Made by a program: the position numbers and the translations under genes
NCBI GenBank assembly: GCA_020724265.1
Contig: DYHH01000027.1
Location: 1-52,196 of the forward strand
Reading direction: 5' to 3'
DNA: 52,196 nt
DNA from: Melioribacter roseus
Lineage (GTDB): Bacteria > Bacteroidota > Ignavibacteria > Ignavibacteriales > Melioribacteraceae
Shown here: positions 17,171-29,705 of the stretch, one piece after another
How positions within the stretch are numbered: the first letter of the stretch is position 1
Layout of the letters: each line of letters opens with the position of its first letter
Notes under the pieces: model-generated
Database searches by the model: none
What the model was told of the DNA's origin: nothing
The model's input: the letters and a program-made list of their open reading frames with translations, nothing else

Positions 17171-17209
17171 TAATTGCAAGAAAAATTTATTCATTGTTTT
17201 GAGGTTACT

Positions 17210-17617
17210 ATGTTAATAACTCACATCGAACATATCGGGATTGCCGTAAAGGACTTAGACTCTGCGATTACTTATTATGAAAATGTGTTAGGATTAAAAT
17301 GCTACGCAATAGAAGAGGTTGCTGACCAGAAAGTAAAGACTGCTTTTTTTAAAGTCGGTGATACAAAAATTGAATTATTAGAATCCACTGATCCCGAAGG
17401 TCCTATTGGTAAATTTATTGAAAAGAAAGGTGAAGGCATTCATCATATCGCTTTTAATGTACCCGAATTAGAAGAGGCAATTAAAGAAGTTGATGAAAGC
17501 GGTATACAATTAATAGACAAAAAACCTCGAAAAGGTGCAGAAGGAATGAATATTGCTTTCTTACATCCAAAATCTACCTTTGGCGTTTTAACGGAATTCT
17601 GTGAAAAAGCAGATTAA
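17210..17617 (+). CDS. mce: Methylmalonyl-CoA epimerase
   Basis: 135 aa from the ATG at 17210, which has GAGGT just upstream; the longer frame uses a TTG. This is a vicinal-oxygen-chelate protein made of two beta-alpha-beta3 halves. Metal ligands are expected at His8 in HIEHIGIAV, His in [11 protein letters not shown], and Glu in [13 protein letters not shown] and [18 protein letters not shown] are family hallmarks. The enzyme interconverts (2R)- and (2S)-methylmalonyl-CoA. That step links methylmalonyl-CoA mutase, which makes the R form from succinyl-CoA, to the S-specific decarboxylase encoded next. It is the first gene of a five-gene operon, 29 bp before mmdA. Confidence 0.95.
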
Positions 17618-17646
17618 TAAATAAGAATATTTTTAACGGAGTTAAA

Positions 17647-19206
17647 ATGGCGTTACAAGACAAGATACAAGAGTTGATGGAGATGCGTGCAAAAGCACGT
17701 TTAGGCGGTGGTGAAAAACGAATTGAATCTCAACATAAAAAAGGTAAGTATACTGCACGCGAAAGAATCGATCTACTTTTGGATGAAGGGAGTTTTGAAG
17801 AATTTGATATGTTTGTTTCGCATCGTACCGTTGACTTTGGTCTTGATAAGCAAAGTTACCTTTCGGATGGAGTTGTTACCGGTTATGGCACTATTGATGG
17901 CAGATTAGTCTATATATTCTCTCAGGATTTTACAGTTTTCGGCGGTTCACTTTCCGAAATGTATGCTCAGAAGATTTGTAAAGTGATGGACAAGGCGATG
18001 AAGGTTGGCGCTCCGGTTATTGGTATTAATGATAGCGGGGGTGCAAGAATTCAAGAAGGTGTAAAAAGTCTAGGAGGTTACGCTGATATTTTTCAACGAA
18101 ATATTTTGGCTTCCGGGTTGATTCCACAAATCTCCGCAATATTTGGTCCTTGTGCCGGTGGTGCTGTTTATTCACCTGCGTTGACTGACTTCACAATCAT
18201 GTCCAAAGGTACATCTTATATGTTTGTAACCGGACCGAAAGTAGTTAAGACCGTAACAGGCGAAGTTGTTACAGAAGAAGAATTAGGCGGTGCAAGTGTC
18301 CACGGTACAAAATCTGGTGTTGCACATTTTGTCGCGGAAGATGAAAACGAAGGTATTCTATTAATTAGAAAACTTTTGAGCTATCTGCCGCAAAATAACT
18401 TAGAAGATCCACCGTTAGCGCCTTGTGATGACCCAATCGATAGACTCGATGATGTTTTAAATGAAATAATTCCTGAAAATCCGAACAAACCTTACGATGT
18501 AAAAGATGTTATTCATTCTGTTGTAGATTATAATGAATTTTTAGAAGTCCAAAGAAGATATGCTCCAAACATCATAACCGGGTTTGCAAGATTCAACGGT
18601 CAATCTGTTGGTATTGTAGCAAATCAACCAAGTTATTTGGCAGGCGTGCTCGATATTAATGCTTCTAGAAAAGCTGCCAGATTTGTTAGGTTCTGCGATT
18701 CATTTAATATCCCGATAGTTACATTTGTTGATGTACCTGGCTTCCTTCCCGGAACTGCTCAAGAATATGGTGGAATAATACTTCACGGTGCAAAACTACT
18801 CTTTGCTTACGGTGAAGCAACAGTTCCTAAAGTAACGATAATATTAAGAAAAGCTTACGGCGGAGCTTACGATGTTATGAGTTCCAAACATTTGCGAGGT
18901 GATATAAACTATTCATGGCCTGCTGCAGAAATTGCTGTTATGGGTCCACGAGGAGCGATCGAAGTTCTCCATGCTAAGGAATTAAGTCAAATTGAAGATC
19001 CGCACGAAAGAGCTGTGTATGTTGCAGAGAAAGAAGAAGAATACAAACAAAAATTTGCTAATCCTTATGTAGCTGCTAAGTATGGTTTTATTGATGACGT
19101 CATTGAACCGCGTAATACACGGTTTAGAGTTATTCGTGCATTGCAAATGTTAAACACAAAGAAAGACCAAAATCCACCTAAGAAACATTCAAATATGCCA
19201 TTATAA
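17647..19206 (+). CDS. mmdA: Methylmalonyl-CoA decarboxylase alpha subunit (carboxyltransferase)
   Basis: 519 aa, the standard length for the acyl-CoA carboxyltransferase family (also the propionyl-CoA carboxylase beta subunit). Hallmarks include [20 protein letters not shown], the CoA-binding [26 protein letters not shown], and [16 protein letters not shown] and [11 protein letters not shown] in the second half. It moves the carboxyl group from (S)-methylmalonyl-CoA to the biotin on MmdC. On its own it could belong to propionyl-CoA carboxylase. The downstream gamma, biotin and membrane beta subunits, with no biotin carboxylase gene, make the sodium-pumping decarboxylase much more likely. GGAG precedes the ATG. 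Confidence 0.95.
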
Positions 19207-19215
19207 GAGAAGAAG

Positions 19216-19662
19216 ATGAATGAATTGATTCAAAACTCGGATACATTAAGTGCGGTAAAAGATACCGTTGTTTCTGCGATGGAATCAGCGAATGGCGAAA
19301 TACCAGATCTTCAGTTTAAGATATCAAACATTTCTACAGATAGTTTGGTTCTTACAGTCCTTGGTTACACAATTGTTTTCCTAGCTCTTCTCTTTTTGTT
19401 CATAACATTTGTTAATGTCACAAGACTTCTCAATTATAAAATAAAAAAGAAACTGCAATCAACAGGGAAAGAAAAAGAAGAAACAGAGACTATCGATCTT
19501 TCCGGTGAAGTTACTGCAGCTATATCAACAGCTTTAATTTTACATTTTAGAGAAATACATGATTTTGAAAGCACTATAATCACAATAAAGAAAGTTCAAA
19601 AACCTTATTCACCTTGGAGTTCAAAGATTTACGGCTTAAGACAATACCCCGGTAAAAGATAA
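19216..19662 (+). CDS. mmdD: Na+-translocating decarboxylase gamma/delta subunit (OadG/MmdD family)
   Basis: 148 aa. One membrane helix (about residues 50-75, VLTVLGYTIVFLALLFLFI) is followed by the short charged linker YKIKKKLQSTGKEKEE. A C-terminal region then carries EVTAAISTALILHF and ends WSSKIYGLRQYPGKR, as in OadG-type subunits. In known complexes this small subunit ties the soluble carboxyltransferase to the membrane beta subunit and speeds decarboxylation. It has a longer N-terminal segment before the helix than enterobacterial OadG. It begins 9 bp after mmdA and ends 12 bp before mmdC, which supports one complex. Confidence 0.9.
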   Translation: MNELIQNSDTLSAVKDTVVSAMESANGEIPDLQFKISNISTDSLVLTVLGYTIVFLALLFLFITFVNVTRLLNYKIKKKLQSTGKEKEETETIDLSGEVTAAISTALILHFREIHDFESTIITIKKVQKPYSPWSSKIYGLRQYPGKR

Positions 19663-19674
19663 ACAGGAAAGAAA

Positions 19675-20112
19675 ATGAAAAAATTTACGTTTACGATCAG
19701 AGGAAATAAATATAATGTTGAGTTACTCAACATCGAAGATAACATTGCTGAAGTTGAAGTAAACGGGTCTAAATATGAAGTTGAAATCGGTCAAGAAATA
19801 AAAACAACAAAGACTCCTAAATTAGTCAGAGAGCAAGCCTTCCCATCTCCGGAAGCCGACCGTGCAAAAACAAGCAGCCCTGCCGAAAAGAAAGGTGCCG
19901 GTCTTGTAAAAGCACCTCTACCGGGTACAATTTTAGAGATTAATATTAAAGAAGGTGACGTTGTAAAAAGCGGCGACAAGTTACTTATAATGGAAGCTAT
20001 GAAAATGGAAAACAATATTACCGCCGATAGAGAAGGAAAAATCATTTCAATTAAGGTTAAACCCGGTGATTCTGTACTTGAAGGTGATACATTAGTTGAG
20101 ATTGGGGGCTAA
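19675..20112 (+). CDS. mmdC: Biotin carboxyl carrier subunit of methylmalonyl-CoA decarboxylase
   Basis: 145 aa. The C-terminal biotinyl domain (about 76-145) contains EAMKMEN with the biotin-accepting Lys110. A Pro/Ala/Ser-rich flexible linker lies at about 48-75. The N-terminal part (1-47, KFTFTIRGNKYNVELLNIED) is the small beta domain usual in these carriers. The biotin arm shuttles CO2 from MmdA to the membrane subunit MmdB. Its start is 12 bp after mmdD and its stop is 2 bp before the mmdB start, so translation is probably coupled. Confidence 0.95.
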   Translation: MKKFTFTIRGNKYNVELLNIEDNIAEVEVNGSKYEVEIGQEIKTTKTPKLVREQAFPSPEADRAKTSSPAEKKGAGLVKAPLPGTILEINIKEGDVVKSGDKLLIMEAMKMENNITADREGKIISIKVKPGDSVLEGDTLVEIGG

Positions 20113-20114
20113 TA

Positions 20115-21284
20115 ATGGATGCTATTCTTCGTGAACTTATAGACGGTTTTAATATTTTTATTCAGTATACAGGTTTTGCTAATTTAACAATCGGTCATTT
20201 TTTGATGCTGATTGTTGGGTGTATTTTTATTTCACTCGGAATTATTAAAGAATATGAACCCCTTCTTTTAGTACCGATAGGTTTCGGAGTTCTTCTCGGC
20301 AACATTCCCTTTTTAGAAACCGCCGGAATGCAAATCGGAATTTATGAAGAAGGAAGCGTTTTAAACTATCTTTACTTCGGTGTATTAAAAGGAATATATC
20401 CGCCTCTTATCTTTTTAGGAATTGGTGCGATGACCGACTTCTCGACGTTGCTTTCAAACCCGAAACTTATGCTATTAGGTGCCGCAGCTCAAATAGGTAT
20501 TTTTCTAACATTCTTAGCTGCTTTAGCTTTAGGTTTTAGTACACAGCAAGCAGCTGCAATCGGTATAATTGGCGGTGCGGATGGACCTACTGCAATTTTC
20601 TTATCTTCTAAATTAGCGCCCGAATTAATCGGAGCTATAGCAATTGCCGCATATTCTTATATGGCATTAGTTCCGGTTCTCCAACCTCCTATTATTAAAT
20701 TGCTTACAAATAAAGAAGAAAGAAGAATAAAGATGAAACCTCCCCGCGCAGTTGGGAAAACTGAAAAGATTTTATTCCCTATTGTCGGACTACTTTTAAC
20801 AACTTTTATTTCTCCCGGAGGTTTGCCTTTACTCGGTATGCTTTTCTTCGGAAATCTTCTTAAAGAATCAGGTGTAACAAGACGATTAGCTGATACAGCT
20901 TCAAAACCACTTATTGATATTGTAACAATTCTTCTTGGTTTAACTGTTGGTGCTTCAACCCAAGCAACTACATTTTTAACTCCTCAGTCAATTTTAATTT
21001 TTGTTCTTGGTGCAATTTCATTTATGATAGCAACTGCAGGAGGAGTAATTTTTGCAAAAGCGATGAATCTTTTCTTAAAGGGAGACAATAAACTTAATCC
21101 GATGATAGGTGCAGCAGGTGTTTCTGCCGTACCTGATAGTGCTCGTGTTGTTCAGCATTTAGGATTAAAAGAAGATAAATCAAATTACTTACTTATGCAC
21201 GCTATGGCACCAAACGTATCGGGTGTAATTGGTTCGGCGGTTGCTGCCGGTATCCTGTTAAGTTTCTTAACTCACATTTTATAA
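20115..21284 (+). CDS. mmdB: Na+-translocating decarboxylase beta subunit (membrane carboxybiotin decarboxylase)
   Basis: 389 aa, a polytopic membrane protein with about nine or more helices. Family hallmarks include GAMTDFSTLLSNPKLMLLGAAAQ, GIIGGADGPTAIFLSSKLAP (the reentrant region with the conserved Asp in GGADGPT), MKPPRAVGKTEKILFPI, and the C-terminal GAAGVSAVPDSARVVQ and HAMAPNVSGVIGSAV. It removes CO2 from carboxybiotin and couples that to pumping about two Na+ out of the cell, giving a sodium-motive force from methylmalonyl-CoA decarboxylation. It is the last gene of the operon. An inverted repeat follows the stop. Confidence 0.95.
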   Translation: MDAILRELIDGFNIFIQYTGFANLTIGHFLMLIVGCIFISLGIIKEYEPLLLVPIGFGVLLGNIPFLETAGMQIGIYEEGSVLNYLYFGVLKGIYPPLIFLGIGAMTDFSTLLSNPKLMLLGAAAQIGIFLTFLAALALGFSTQQAAAIGIIGGADGPTAIFLSSKLAPELIGAIAIAAYSYMALVPVLQPPIIKLLTNKEERRIKMKPPRAVGKTEKILFPIVGLLLTTFISPGGLPLLGMLFFGNLLKESGVTRRLADTASKPLIDIVTILLGLTVGASTQATTFLTPQSILIFVLGAISFMIATAGGVIFAKAMNLFLKGDNKLNPMIGAAGVSAVPDSARVVQHLGLKEDKSNYLLMHAMAPNVSGVIGSAVAAGILLSFLTHIL

Positions 21285-21286
21285 TA

Positions 21287-21332
21287 CAAAGATAATTGCA
21301 TTAATTTTTTGTTTAGAAGAATATTATCTTTG
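21287..21332. repeat. 10-bp perfect inverted repeat between mmdB and the M1 peptidase
   Basis: CAAAGATAAT (21287-21296) and ATTATCTTTG (21323-21332) are exact complements, 26 bp apart, starting 3 bp after the mmdB stop. The right arm includes TATCTTTG, which resembles the Bacteroidetes -7 element TAnnTTTG, and lies 28 bp upstream of the peptidase ATG. No T-run follows, so it is more likely a promoter/operator than a terminator. Confidence 0.5.
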
Positions 21333-21359: not shown

Positions 21360-24005
21360 ATGAAAAAACTTTCTATTCTATTTGTTGTGTTATCTTTATT
21401 ACTAGTTACACATTCACAAACTATTGAAGACCATCTTTGTTCTCACGGTAAATCTAATTATTCCTTGTTATCAAAAATGAACGATACGGTTCAATATCCC
21501 GGTGATCAAAATATTGATGTTACCTATTACAAATTGGATCTGAATATTACGTATAATAAGAATGTACAAAATCCCGTTTATTTTAACAGTGTTGTAACAA
21601 TAAACGCAAAAGCTGTAGGAAATATTAACACGGTATTTTTCGATTTGCGTAATCAACTTACTGTAACAGACGTTAAAGTAAATGGTATTGGTGCTGCGTT
21701 TAATCATGCAAATCACAAAGTACAAATAACTCTCAATTCTTCAGTAAGCGATGGTGATGAGTTTTCAACTGAAATTACATACGAAGGTGTACCAGGTTCA
21801 TCCGGTTTAGGAAGTTTTGGTTACAGTACATCGGTTGATGCAATTTGGACCTTAAGCGAACCTTACGGAGCTCCCGATTGGTGGGTTTGTAAAGATGATC
21901 CCTCAGATAAAGCCGATTCTGCTGATATTTGGATCACTATTGACAAAAATTTAATTCCTGCTTCCAACGGTTCTCTTGAAGAAATTGTTGATAACGGTGA
22001 CGGAACACATACTTATAAATGGCATTCATCTTATTCGATTGCACATTACTTGATTTCTCTTGCTATTGCACCATATCAGATTTATGAACAATATTATCAT
22101 TACACTCCTACCGATTCAATGCTGGTCATTCATTATAACTATGCACACAATCATACTCAAAACAGAATGAATATTTTAGACGAAACCATAAATATGCTGG
22201 ATGTTTTTTCTGATTTATACGGTTTATACCCTTTCATAAATGAAAAGTACGGACACGCTGAATTTATTTGGGGCGGTGCCATGGAACACCAAACTCTTTC
22301 TTCTATGGGAGGATATTATACTTCTATTATTGCACATGAACTTGCTCACCAATGGTTTGGCGATATGATTACATGCGCTGATTGGAACAGCATTTGGCTT
22401 AACGAAGGTTTTGCAACATACAGCGAATCATTATACTGGGAAAAAGCTTACGGGTATGAAGCATTTATGAGTGATGTTCTTTCAAATATGAGCCGTGCAA
22501 AATTAGCAAACGGTACAATTTATGTTCAAGACATTAGCGATGTGAATAATATTTTTAATCCAAATAGAACTTACCGTAAAGCGGCAACTGTATTGCATAT
22601 GCTCCGCGGTGTTATTGGAGACGAAGACTTTTTCCAAACAATGTATAATTATGCACATGACGAGCAGGTAAGATGGAAAGCTGCTGTAACGGAAGATTTC
22701 CAACGTGTTGCAGAATCAACATCGGGTATGGATTTAGATTGGTTTTTCCAGCAATGGATTTTTGATGAAGGATATCCAAAATATAATTTCGGCTGGTCAA
22801 GTTCGGTTTCAAATGATCATTATGTTGTTAATGGTATAATTGAACAGAAGCAAACAGTCGGACCAACATTTACAATGCCGGTTGAAATTGTAATCGAATA
22901 TATTGACGGAACAACAGAATCATTTATTGTTTGGAACACAGAGGCTTCACAAACTTTTGAATTACCCGTTTCGAAGGAACCATTCGACGTGTTGTTTGAT
23001 CCGAATAATTGGATTCTTAAAGATGTTAATTATTTATTAGTTGATCCGCCATTAAATGAAGGAATTCTATTAGTTAACGGTTTAACGTGGAATGATGATG
23101 CAATAAATTCTTATTCAAATTCTGCATATTGGGGAAGTATGCCGATAGATTTTTGGGATATATATAATCAACCCGGTTCCGGTTACCCGGAAGTTTTACC
23201 TGATGCATTAGGCAACGGATCATTGGAGTTAGCAGCATTACGCCGATATTCAACTGTCCTATGGGTCTCCGGTGGAAGTGATGCTAATAATTTTAATAAA
23301 GAGTTAATGAAAAGCTATTTGAATGCCGGTGGAAATATTGTTCTTCTAACAAATTCGGGAAGAAGTTTTTTAGATTCGGAACTTGTAAATTATTTAGGAA
23401 TTACATGGCGGGTTAGTCCACTTTCTACATTAAGAGATTTTCAAAGTACGCATCCCGGTTTATCAGATATATCGCTATTGTCCAATCAAAATTTTATAAA
23501 CATATTTGAAACCGAATTAACATCAGCTAACTCAACTCTGCTGTATCAAGCTGTTGATGGATTTGATACACCTCAAGGTGTTGGTGTAATTTCGCAGCCT
23601 GAAGGAAAAGGAAAATTTGTACTACTTGCCAGTAAACCTTATTTGTTTGATTACGATGAACTATCTGCTAACATGGAATACATTCTGTACAATTTAATCG
23701 GAGAACCAACAACAGATGTTAAAGGAGAAACTGAACTTGTAAAAGAATTCGAATTGAAATCGGTTTACCCGAATCCATTTAATCCCAGCACTACAATTCA
23801 ATTTTCTTTGCCGGTGAATGAAATGGTTACCATTTCCGTTTACAATATTATTGGACAAAAAGTTGACGATTTAGTAAGTGAAAAATTTGAATCCGGTGTT
23901 CATAAATTTAATTGGAATGCTTCATCTTTGCCAAGTGGAGTATATTTAATAAGATTAAATGCCGGTAAATATAATGCTGTTCAAAAAGCGATACTTTTAA
24001 AATAG
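21360..24005 (+). CDS. T9SS-exported M1-family metallopeptidase with extra C-terminal Rossmann-like domain
   Basis: 881 aa from the ATG at 21360, where a clean signal peptide begins (to about residue 20, LLLVTHSQ). The gluzincin site is complete: HELAHQW with zinc ligands His326 and His330 and catalytic Glu327, then WLNEGFATYSE with ligand Glu349. The exopeptidase motif, normally GAMEN, reads GAMEH (306-310). Residues about 565-780 form an added alpha/beta region (GILLVNGLTWNDD, STVLWVSGGSD, GGNIVLLTNSG) resembling a glutamine-amidotransferase-like fold. A T9SS sorting domain (about 800-881, VYPNPFNPSTTIQFSLP) ends the protein. It likely trims peptides outside the cell. Confidence 0.92.
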   Translation: MKKLSILFVVLSLLLVTHSQTIEDHLCSHGKSNYSLLSKMNDTVQYPGDQNIDVTYYKLDLNITYNKNVQNPVYFNSVVTINAKAVGNINTVFFDLRNQLTVTDVKVNGIGAAFNHANHKVQITLNSSVSDGDEFSTEITYEGVPGSSGLGSFGYSTSVDAIWTLSEPYGAPDWWVCKDDPSDKADSADIWITIDKNLIPASNGSLEEIVDNGDGTHTYKWHSSYSIAHYLISLAIAPYQIYEQYYHYTPTDSMLVIHYNYAHNHTQNRMNILDETINMLDVFSDLYGLYPFINEKYGHAEFIWGGAMEHQTLSSMGGYYTSIIAHELAHQWFGDMITCADWNSIWLNEGFATYSESLYWEKAYGYEAFMSDVLSNMSRAKLANGTIYVQDISDVNNIFNPNRTYRKAATVLHMLRGVIGDEDFFQTMYNYAHDEQVRWKAAVTEDFQRVAESTSGMDLDWFFQQWIFDEGYPKYNFGWSSSVSNDHYVVNGIIEQKQTVGPTFTMPVEIVIEYIDGTTESFIVWNTEASQTFELPVSKEPFDVLFDPNNWILKDVNYLLVDPPLNEGILLVNGLTWNDDAINSYSNSAYWGSMPIDFWDIYNQPGSGYPEVLPDALGNGSLELAALRRYSTVLWVSGGSDANNFNKELMKSYLNAGGNIVLLTNSGRSFLDSELVNYLGITWRVSPLSTLRDFQSTHPGLSDISLLSNQNFINIFETELTSANSTLLYQAVDGFDTPQGVGVISQPEGKGKFVLLASKPYLFDYDELSANMEYILYNLIGEPTTDVKGETELVKEFELKSVYPNPFNPSTTIQFSLPVNEMVTISVYNIIGQKVDDLVSEKFESGVHKFNWNASSLPSGVYLIRLNAGKYNAVQKAILLK

Positions 24006-26351: not shown

Positions 26352-29300
26352 TTAGTAATAGATAGCTTTCTTAAGTGAGCGTTCAAGCGCTTCTTTAAAG
26401 GATTTTAGGTTTACGGGTTTTTGGAAAACAAACTCAACACCAAGCTCGGCGTATTCTTCCGAAATATCTAAAGTTATATCACTACTGAGAACAATTACCG
26501 GTGGTTTAAAACTTATTTCTAGTAATTTGATTTGCTTTGTCAAATCATAACCGCTCATACCCGTCATATAATGATCGGTAATTACAATTGCAGGCGGAGA
26601 TTTTTTAATAATATCCAAAGCTTCGGCACCTTCACCGGCTTCAACAATCTCGTAATTAGGTAAAAAGTTTTTAATCAATTTTGAATAAAGAATTCTGTCG
26701 GTTTTAGAATCATCAACTAATAAAATATTCATAGACGAAACCGGGATGGTAAAAATAAATTCTGTACCTTTTCCGTATTCGCTGTTTACGGAAATATTGC
26801 CGCCATGCTTTTGAATAATTTCTTGAACTAAAGAAAGACCTAAACCACTTCCCTTTTCGCCGGAAGTTCCGGGAGTTGTAAACTTGGAATCAACATTAAA
26901 TAATTTTTCTAAATCTTCTGCTTTAATTCCAATACCGTTATCTTTAACACTAAATTCGAAGCCTCGCTCGGCAACATTTGGTTGAGATGTAATAACAATC
27001 TCTCCGCCGGGATTAGTAAACTTAATGGCGTTGGAAATCAAATTGTTAAATACTTGCATTAGCAAAGTTGCGTCTGCATGTACAAAAACTTCATTCCCCA
27101 CTAAATTTTTCAGCGTAATATTTTTCTGCATTGCCGAACCCGATACAATGTTCAATGATTTTTGAATTATTGTATTAGCACTAATTCTATCGGGTTCAAA
27201 TCTAACTCTACCTGTTTGAATCCTCGTAAAATCCAACAATGAATTAACCAAGGAGAGCATACTCTTGGACGAATCTTGAATAAGTTTTATATAGGTTCTT
27301 TGTTTTTCGGGATCAACATCCTTTTCACTTAAGAGATAATCGGTAAAACCTAAAATCGAACTAAAAGGAGTTCTAAGATCATGAGAAATAATTGATAAAA
27401 ATCTGTCTTTTGCTTCATTCAATTTCTTTAAGTTCTCAGCGGAGTTTTTTAACTCTTCTTCGGCTTTTTTCTTAAATGAAACATCGCTTACTAATCCATA
27501 AATTTTTTGTATTCCCCCTTTTTGATCACGGATAATATTGATTTTATTCTCAATCCAAACAATATTTCCCGAGTTATTAATAATTCTATATTCAAATGCA
27601 TCGGAATGCCTTACAAAATCTGAATAGAGTCTTTTCATTTTTGACAAAACTGTTTCGGCATCGTCGGGATGAATAATTTTCATCCATTTTTTATCATCGG
27701 TTAAAAATTCTTCGGGAGAAAAACCGGTTATATTTTGAATTGCCGGTGTATAAAGCACAACTTTTAATTTACCATCCCGCTGTTCTGCCGTCCATAAACT
27801 CTCTTCAATGTTTTCGGTAATACTTCTATACCGTTCTTCGCTTTCAAGCAATGCTTCACGGTTTTGTTTTTCAATGGTTACATCCCGAAGAACGGAAACC
27901 AAAAACATGTTTTCGTCAACTCCGTACTTTGCAACCGAATCAGCAACAGAAAAAGCTGACCCGTCTTTCTTGATTAAATCAAATTCAATTCTATCAATTT
28001 CAACACCGTCATGCTCAAGATCATGAAAAGTGTTCTCTATTCTCTCCCTATCTTTGTTCGCAATAAATTCATAAAAATTACTTCCTGCTAAATCATCTTC
28101 AGATTCATAACCAAGCATTTTTACGAAGGAGTTATTTACTAAAATAATTGTACCGTTAACCGTTACGGCAATCCCGTCTTGAGATGCTTCAAAAACCGTT
28201 TTTATAAGAAGAAGATCTTTCTCTGCTTGTTTCTTTTCAGTTACATCAGTAAGTACGGCAATATAGTATTGCGGAGTACCGTCGTGTTCCGAAACAGTTG
28301 CGAAACTTGATAGAACAAATACTATTTCACCGTTACGTTTAATTAACGGAATTTCTTTTGATTGAAAGGAAACTAGTTTTTCAAAAACAATTTCAAATTT
28401 GTTGTCTTCTAAAAACTCCGGGTCAATTAAATCGGTGAAGTATTGATCGCAAAGTTCCTCTTGGGTATAACCGAAGGATTTTGCAAAATGAGGGTTTGCA
28501 TAATTAATTTTGCCGTTTAAATTAATTGTACAAATATACTCATGAGAATTTGTAACTATATTGCGAAATTGCTCTTCCGATCTTCTTAATTCTTTTTCAT
28601 TAAGATAACGTTCGGTTATGCTCGAACATAAAATAACAATCGATTTATTCTCTCCATCTCCGGTAAGCCCCATCCTAACATCAAAAATTTCCTTTTGTCC
28701 TTCGCCGGTATCAATATAAAGATCTCCTTCCCATCGCTTTTTGTCCGTCAATTCTTCTCTAAGTATCTGAAAATAATCTTCGTTAAGAGAAGGAAAAATT
28801 ATACTTATATATTTACCGTAAACCTGGCTGCGTGTAAATCCAAATACTTTTTCCGATGATTCATTCCAAAATCTTATTTCGCCATTGAAGTTAAGACCGA
28901 TAACCGCATCAACAATTGATGAAGTAATTGCCTGGTACCTTCGTAGTTCGTTTAATTCATTTTCTACTGCAATTTTATTTTCCAATTCATCGGTAACATC
29001 TTTAATAAGAACAAGTACTGTATTGGAATTTTGATTGTTGATCGGAACTAACTTAATATTTACAAGTATATCTTCGTGTATTTTACCCAGAGGAAGATTT
29101 GCTTCCTGAATTTTTGTGTTATCAACTTTAAGTTTATTATATAACTCCTTAATTGCATTTTCAGACTCGCTGGAGAATATATCCCGAATCCTTTTGATGT
29201 TTTGTTTTATTTGAATTTTTTGTGATGAAGATGAAATAATAATTTCCCCATTCATATTCGTAATCAGTACTATATCCGAAATTGGGGAGAGCGTGTTTAG

Positions 29301-29705
29301 TAGGTTATTATAATCAAATTTTTCTACTGAAGTTGAAGCTAATGATTTGAGATCCTCAATAATTACAATGCCGCCCTTAAAAATTGATCCGTCAAAAATC
29401 GAATTTGCTTTCGCAATTATTTTTAGTTCGTTTCCTTCAAATGATTTTATTTTCTTCAGCTCACACTCAAAACTTTCACCTTTTGCTAAAGATTTTATTT
29501 CTTTCGATAAAGATGTAAACCCAATTTTTTTATCCGATAATATGGATTTTCCTATAATTTCTTCTTTTGAGAAAGCAGCAGTAAGATGAAACGAAAAGAA
29601 ACTTTCATTGACGTATGTTATCATGAATTCTTCATCGAAGACAATTATTCCGATCGGAGCATAGTCTAAAAAGCTTTCAGTTAAGATTTCAGAGGTTGAT
29701 TTCAT
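26352..29705 (-). CDS. Hybrid sensor histidine kinase with six PAS domains and a C-terminal receiver
   Basis: 1117 aa, soluble; no membrane segment is visible. Six PAS-like segments run from the N-terminus to about residue 745 (for example APIGIIVFDEEFMITYVNES, SSIVDAVIGLNFNGEIRFWN, ASQDGIAVTVNGTIILVNNS, the last being PAS_3 type with FSPEEFLTDDKKWMKIIHPDD shortened). HisKA has SIISHDLRTP with His775, and HATPase_c has NNLISNAIKF, DNGIGI and GSGLGLSLV. A receiver (about 992-1115) has phosphoacceptor Asp1044 in VITDHYMTGMSG and Lys1096 in FQKPVN. With an internal receiver and no output domain, it probably passes phosphate to a phosphotransfer protein elsewhere. Redox, light or ligand sensing by PAS is possible; no cofactor residues can be assigned. 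Confidence 0.93.
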   Translation of the reverse strand: MKSTSEILTESFLDYAPIGIIVFDEEFMITYVNESFFSFHLTAAFSKEEIIGKSILSDKKIGFTSLSKEIKSLAKGESFECELKKIKSFEGNELKIIAKANSIFDGSIFKGGIVIIEDLKSLASTSVEKFDYNNLLNTLSPISDIVLITNMNGEIIISSSSQKIQIKQNIKRIRDIFSSESENAIKELYNKLKVDNTKIQEANLPLGKIHEDILVNIKLVPINNQNSNTVLVLIKDVTDELENKIAVENELNELRRYQAITSSIVDAVIGLNFNGEIRFWNESSEKVFGFTRSQVYGKYISIIFPSLNEDYFQILREELTDKKRWEGDLYIDTGEGQKEIFDVRMGLTGDGENKSIVILCSSITERYLNEKELRRSEEQFRNIVTNSHEYICTINLNGKINYANPHFAKSFGYTQEELCDQYFTDLIDPEFLEDNKFEIVFEKLVSFQSKEIPLIKRNGEIVFVLSSFATVSEHDGTPQYYIAVLTDVTEKKQAEKDLLLIKTVFEASQDGIAVTVNGTIILVNNSFVKMLGYESEDDLAGSNFYEFIANKDRERIENTFHDLEHDGVEIDRIEFDLIKKDGSAFSVADSVAKYGVDENMFLVSVLRDVTIEKQNREALLESEERYRSITENIEESLWTAEQRDGKLKVVLYTPAIQNITGFSPEEFLTDDKKWMKIIHPDDAETVLSKMKRLYSDFVRHSDAFEYRIINNSGNIVWIENKINIIRDQKGGIQKIYGLVSDVSFKKKAEEELKNSAENLKKLNEAKDRFLSIISHDLRTPFSSILGFTDYLLSEKDVDPEKQRTYIKLIQDSSKSMLSLVNSLLDFTRIQTGRVRFEPDRISANTIIQKSLNIVSGSAMQKNITLKNLVGNEVFVHADATLLMQVFNNLISNAIKFTNPGGEIVITSQPNVAERGFEFSVKDNGIGIKAEDLEKLFNVDSKFTTPGTSGEKGSGLGLSLVQEIIQKHGGNISVNSEYGKGTEFIFTIPVSSMNILLVDDSKTDRILYSKLIKNFLPNYEIVEAGEGAEALDIIKKSPPAIVITDHYMTGMSGYDLTKQIKLLEISFKPPVIVLSSDITLDISEEYAELGVEFVFQKPVNLKSFKEALERSLKKAIYY

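Follow-up and report, generated by a model that had tools for sequence, protein, structure and literature searches.

A T9SS-tailed M1 peptidase of the MEH branch from Melioribacter roseus carries a rare, apparently non-catalytic alpha/beta domain

Results

An M1 peptidase with an added domain

The window, meaning the whole stretch of 52,196 nucleotides of Melioribacter roseus DNA analysed here, contains an 881-aa T9SS-tailed M1 peptidase gene at positions 21360–24005, identified by ORF translation and Pfam (all features given below lie on the forward strand). Judged by sequence and predicted structure, the product is an M1 aminopeptidase of a branch whose exopeptidase motif ends in MEH, and it carries a rare, apparently non-catalytic relative of GIFT domains, at the level of fold, in front of its sorting tail. 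As an overall explanation, it is probable that an exported zinc aminopeptidase of the MEH branch has acquired a non-catalytic amidotransferase-like accessory module.

The open reading frame is free of internal stops. Residues 1–20 (21360–21419) form a probable Sec signal peptide by eye. A start at an upstream TTG in the same frame, at 21309, would lengthen the protein by 17 residues; the ATG at 21360 is preferred because it appears by eye to give the better signal peptide. The domain order is M1 N-terminal domain, zinc site, beta domain III, extra alpha/beta domain and T9SS tail. The Peptidase_M1_N beta domain (PF17900, over cut-off) covers residues 56–231 (21525–22052), and the Peptidase_M1 catalytic domain (PF01433; 22317–22757) was matched at residues 320–466 with 107.7 bits against a curated cut-off of 27.7. 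The zinc site is complete, as the initial annotation had recognized: HELAH at 326–330 (H326, E327, H330) is followed 18 residues on by E349, giving HExxH-x18-E. The zinc ligands, M308, E309, H310 and Y405 are invariant in 49/49 rows of alignment A2. Y405 lies in a TYRKA stretch and presumably corresponds to the catalytic Tyr of M1 enzymes. From these features, the protein is predicted to be an M1 zinc aminopeptidase.

The AlphaFold2 model of the whole protein had a mean pLDDT of 82.7, with residues 574–621 below 50. In this model, alpha/beta elements at about 569–780 are placed between beta domain III (about residues 474–560; 22779–23039), which is also matched in the best matches without the added domain, and the strands of the tail (810–879). 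No helical domain IV of the kind present in ERAP-type enzymes was seen in the model, and the core would thus be a three-domain M1 core without that large helical domain. Known M1 aminopeptidases (PF01433; ERAP1, IRAP, EryP, PepN and LTA4H) share with the window protein the N-terminal beta domain, HExxH-x18-E, the Glu of GxMEx and beta domain III, and IRAP and ERAP1 chains were matched by the full model over about 550–570 alignment columns. In contrast to these enzymes, the window protein has His for Asn, lacks domain IV in its model, and carries the alpha/beta domain and the T9SS tail. The best PDB sequence match, over residues 47–434, was a two-domain M1 peptidase from Deinococcus (PDB 6a8z and 6iff), which we take to be M1dr; the HMMER alignment places ALET of this enzyme where the window protein has AMEH. 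In the available text of PMC10343166, M1dr is likewise described without domain IV.

A T9SS type A sorting tail occupies residues 802–878 (23763–23993) and passed the cut-offs of both PF18962 (Por_Secre_tail, 47.8 bits) and TIGR04183 (42.7 bits). SprA, the translocon protein and the part of the T9SS that was searched for, was found in the genome of the window with 1068 bits (cut-off 200) and in 0 of 14 control genomes, although SprA alone does not establish export of the window protein. With its signal peptide and tail, the protein would be exported through Sec and the T9SS to the cell surface.

The gene is flanked by methylmalonyl-CoA epimerase and sodium-pump decarboxylase genes on one side and by a pullulanase-like gene on the other, and the same gene order was found in another genome of the genus. 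The epimerase gene and the decarboxylase subunits after it, which resemble methylmalonyl-CoA decarboxylase and include a sodium-pump beta subunit, lie at 17174–21284; the match of the alpha subunit to the methylmalonyl-CoA type was below cut-off. By eye, the product of a large ORF at 26352–29705 resembles a hybrid histidine kinase with several PAS domains and a receiver at its C-terminus.

His is the usual residue at the end of the motif in this M1 branch

The counterpart of GAMEN is GAMEH at residues 306–310 (22275–22289), located by the motif survey and alignment A2, within GGAMEHQT. The protein thus does not carry the GxMEN exopeptidase motif; the Glu is kept, and the Asn is replaced by H310. 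The initial annotation regarded this as a special change. In order to place it, every ORF of at least 150 aa with an M1 core match was collected from 128 records (127 loci and the window). After exact repeats and contained pieces were removed, 120 rows remained, namely the window protein, L038 (a copy of part of it) and 118 others. The residue at the Asn position was His in 107 of these 118 cores, Asn in 10 and neither in one (L005), in a set biased in favour of proteins close to the window protein. No row of A2 departs from M308-E309-H310-Q311-T312; since A2 consists of the window protein and its 48 most similar references, this adds little to the count of 107. In a wider sample, PF01433 was searched over 61 genomes of the phylum, 48 of which had a match. 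Thirty loci were returned, one per genome, with MEH in 7, MEN in 20, and another motif or none in 3; these loci are among the best-scoring matches, which may favour the canonical form.

Six M1 genes were found in the genome of the window by the PF01433 search. His was present in two (the window protein and L003), Asn in one (L002, GAIEN), and the others had GGMEF (L004), GGMEY (L006) or no such motif (L005). Since genes of the last three kinds still score over the cut-off, the last letter of the motif does not decide M1 membership, and GxMEN is, by these sequences, typical of the family rather than defining. The T9SS-tailed M1 proteins of Ignavibacteria and their neighbours (about 640–780 aa) share with the window protein the core, mostly G[GA]MEHQT, and the kind of tail; they differ from it in lacking the added domain.

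GAMEH is therefore common in ordinary members of the family, and the counts among other cores, A2 and the phylum sample rule it out as a novelty. His is normal at the end of the motif in the branch of the window protein, G[GA]MEH, and so does not set this protein apart; the sequence counts already refute it as an individual oddity. In the available descriptions of known M1 enzymes (PMC3244404, PMC10343166), the substrate is contacted by the main chain of the motif Gly and Ala and by the Glu side chain, and these descriptions, as far as available, give no substrate contact for the Asn side chain. In the window protein, Glu309 would hold the free amino terminus of the peptide, with His310 standing in the place of Asn. 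A literature search for GGMEH/GAMEH-type motifs and variants returned no paper on the motif among the matches listed, which is not proof of absence.

At six loci (L064, L065, L068, L069, L081 and L096), the neighbour of a GGMEH/GAMEH M1 gene is another M1 gene with a T9SS tail; L068 has two such neighbours. These neighbours show GGMENQTLTT and HEYAH and belong to a different type. Such His-type/Asn-type tandem genes could serve to compare both motifs.

The added domain has an amidotransferase-like predicted fold

The added alpha/beta domain, similar to class-1 amidotransferases in fold, spans about residues 565–783 (23052–23708), as delimited by its absence in relatives, the model, the fold search and profile A1. 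The size of about 215 aa between core and sorting domain proposed by the initial annotation agrees with the translation and the AlphaFold2 model. GILLVNG, LWVSGGSD and GGNIVLLTNSG all fall within about 568–667. No Pfam match was found for residues 480–800 at E up to 1. When the domain was predicted alone from four sequences, confidence was middling (mean pLDDT 60.9, pTM 0.69).

Foldseek matched two structures below E 0.001. One is the N-terminal domain of IFT52 (E 9.9e-05); the other, at E 1.9e-04, is a chain from a eukaryotic oligosaccharyltransferase complex, and we infer that this chain is the OST48/Wbp1 subunit. VIA-align 2 Z scores were 12.2 for the middle domain of GH42 (Glyco_hydro_42M, 181 residues), 11.3 for PelA, 10.6 for IFT52, 10.5 for oligosaccharyltransferase chains and 10.2 for ThuA (186 residues), in rows spanning 175–188 residues, and 8.5–8.9 for amidotransferases; these matches should be read as one fold class, not as a family assignment. 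A class-I glutamine amidotransferase-like fold, as had been suggested from the letters alone, is thus backed by the fold search and by a model of middling confidence. Structure prediction and fold search both gave an alpha/beta domain, and an ordinary M1 C-terminal domain is ruled out, since the models show alpha/beta structure and none of the relatives read has the domain.

Profile comparison linked the domain firmly to none of the families GldG, ThuA or GH42M and did not show membership at the sequence level. The hhalign probability was 10% for GldG, 7% for ThuA and 0.4% for GH42M, compared with 0.1–0.2% for four single-sequence controls. Against five GldG-type proteins, P was 0.003 over 35 columns, compared with 0.35–0.59 for four single-sequence controls. 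The domain shares the fold class with Glyco_hydro_42M and ThuA, but identity was 13% in both rows and there was no convincing profile match. It also shares the fold of GIFT domains (IFT52, OST48/Wbp1, GldG) through the two Foldseek matches, whereas it has no convincing GldG profile match and is fused before a sorting tail. In the nine members of the domain from which profile A1 was made, Pfam gave sub-threshold matches only, to five families, including DUF2194 in 4/9 (best E 0.0041) and OST48_N in 1/9 (E 0.032). A profile search of the PDB had uricase as its best match, at E 0.075.

A catalytic Cys had not been recognized in the domain, and residues 556–786 indeed hold no Cys at all. No conserved Cys was seen in the A1 alignment of the nine members, and neither Cys nor Ser is conserved at the nucleophile position. 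In the window protein and its same-genus orthologue L010, a Ser lies near a strand end, at a possible nucleophile place. Amidotransferase activity was judged unlikely because of the missing Cys.

The added domain is rare and occurs on unlike proteins

The window protein was matched at E 1e-20 in 58/58 genomes (its own included), where a match may be a paralogue. The best-scoring matches from 27 other genera (L011–L037) were read, and 27/27 have core then tail, with nothing matching residues 575–780; in one (L025), about 100 unmatched residues stand where the domain would be. When the domain was searched alone at E 1e-4, it was found in 8/58 genomes: that of the window, two more from its genus, and five further genomes, one of which matches weakly. 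Among 80 loci of named genomes, three contain it: L048 (same genus, cut by a contig end), L049 (Candidatus Eisenbacteria) and L052 (an uncultured bacterium). Profile A1 matched 13 of 395 phylum genomes at E 1e-4, 5 of them strongly, all sources of A1, and the other 8 partially (22–30 bits). The added domain is thus, on sequence searches, real and rare. The genus is represented by three other genomes. The domain occurs once in one of them and is absent from another, which is 80% complete; in the third, two fragments, each at a contig end, appear to derive from a single split gene. The domain would have been acquired in this genus, between the M1 core and the sorting tail.

The related domain is also found outside M1 proteins. 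L041 is the end of a 1777-aa protein (whole, L206) with CotH, lamin-tail and beta-helix matches, and has the domain before a sorting tail; in L042–L044, a PKD domain with weak Omp28-like matches stands in front of it. None of these proteins, L206 included, has a Pfam peptidase match. The tail is over the Pfam cut-off in L041–L043 and below it in L044. The tail of L049 passes TIGR04183 and FlgD_ig and does not pass PF18962, and L052 has no tail match. Other long unmatched stretches, of about 380–410 aa, follow domain III in L056, L066, L109 and L124. In L124 (Gemmatimonadota), the stretch is a different one (VDDDD...GGGNLF), amidotransferase-like by eye, and is followed by a dockerin match just below cut-off.

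A second M1 gene with the same added domain, L002 on contig 28, is present in the genome of the window and has the Asn-type core GAIEN. Its identity to the window protein is 40% over residues 48–480 and rises to 58% for domain III, 63% for the added domain and 56% for the tail. The corresponding values for L010 are 71% (core), 61% (domain III), 63% (added domain) and 72% (tail). The L002 core is 58% identical to that of L125 (Bacteroidales, without the added domain), whereas domain III is only 26% identical. Sliding-window identity places a change point at about residues 440–480. In a core-only FastTree tree (118 rows, L005 and L038 left out; local support only), L002 falls together with L125 and L124. 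On this tree, 4 changes of the label 'fused' are required, which may be gains or losses, and starred branches force 4; 1/500 label shuffles was as low, indicating that the label is also clustered on the core tree. In our reading, two M1 genes have probably exchanged their C-terminal half.

The domain lies on the Asn-type core of L002 and in proteins without a peptidase match, and so it is not tied to the His motif. The proposal that the fusion defines a surface-exported M1 subfamily is unsupported as worded: the tail-bearing branch lacks the domain in all 27 best matches from other genera, and there are at least two distinct M1 cores to which the domain is joined, a His-type and an Asn-type one.

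Discussion

The added domain would most likely act at the cell surface, as a portable module for binding, spacing or oligomerisation, and not as part of the active site. Because it accompanies the tail and is combined with heads of different kinds, a role in location or binding is likelier than one in peptide specificity. A surface, glycan or partner-binding role is our best guess; a sugar-binding role has been proposed for GIFT domains in the available text of PMC7226087. It is a more speculative idea, which we hold to be rather improbable, that a transferable surface-targeting cassette is made up of domain III, the GIFT-like domain and the sorting tail, with the GIFT-like domain binding a glycan or a glycosylated partner, either on substrate or on the cell surface, and with His- or Asn-type M1 heads being swapped onto the cassette.

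Two other roles for the domain were considered. It could replace helical domain IV, fold over the active site and gate or measure peptides, so that the fusion alters specificity. The domain follows domain III, as domain IV does in PSA and ERAP-type enzymes (a role of domain IV in PSA and ERAP1 is described in the available text of PMC10343166), and domain III and the added domain are jointly common to two unlike cores. However, it is missing from 27/27 best matches from other genera, members of its family are also present in proteins for which Pfam gives no peptidase match (L042–L044; L041/L206), and it is joined to His-type and Asn-type cores alike, which makes this replacement unlikely. That the domain is a second enzyme, amidotransferase-like or a serine-type hydrolase, in a protein of two activities would fit the fold matches, which include Pdx2, carbamoyl phosphate synthetase and imidazole glycerol phosphate synthase, and the Ser near the strand end in the window protein and L010. 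Against this, the domain of the window protein has no Cys, and the nine members conserve neither Cys nor Ser at the nucleophile place; a second activity is hardly to be expected. The third alternative concerns the motif. The textbook motif has Asn (PMC3244404 and PMC10343166, in the text available), as do 20/30 M1 loci in the sample from the phylum, and GAMEH might accordingly mark a change of specificity in this particular protein, but His is the norm among relatives, so that the protein is not special among them and such a change is very unlikely. In a weaker form, the whole His-type branch would differ kinetically from the Asn type.

The reading of an exported aminopeptidase with an accessory module overturns no known biology. 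It corrects a tempting error, since the textbook GAMEN is not universal and a bacterial M1 branch across several phyla uses MEH. It also adds a rare domain, carried by bacterial proteins with a sorting tail, that is related at the level of fold to IFT52 and oligosaccharyltransferase chains. Moreover, the indications of an exchange involving two peptidase cores of the same genome may offer a handle on the modular assembly of T9SS cargo.
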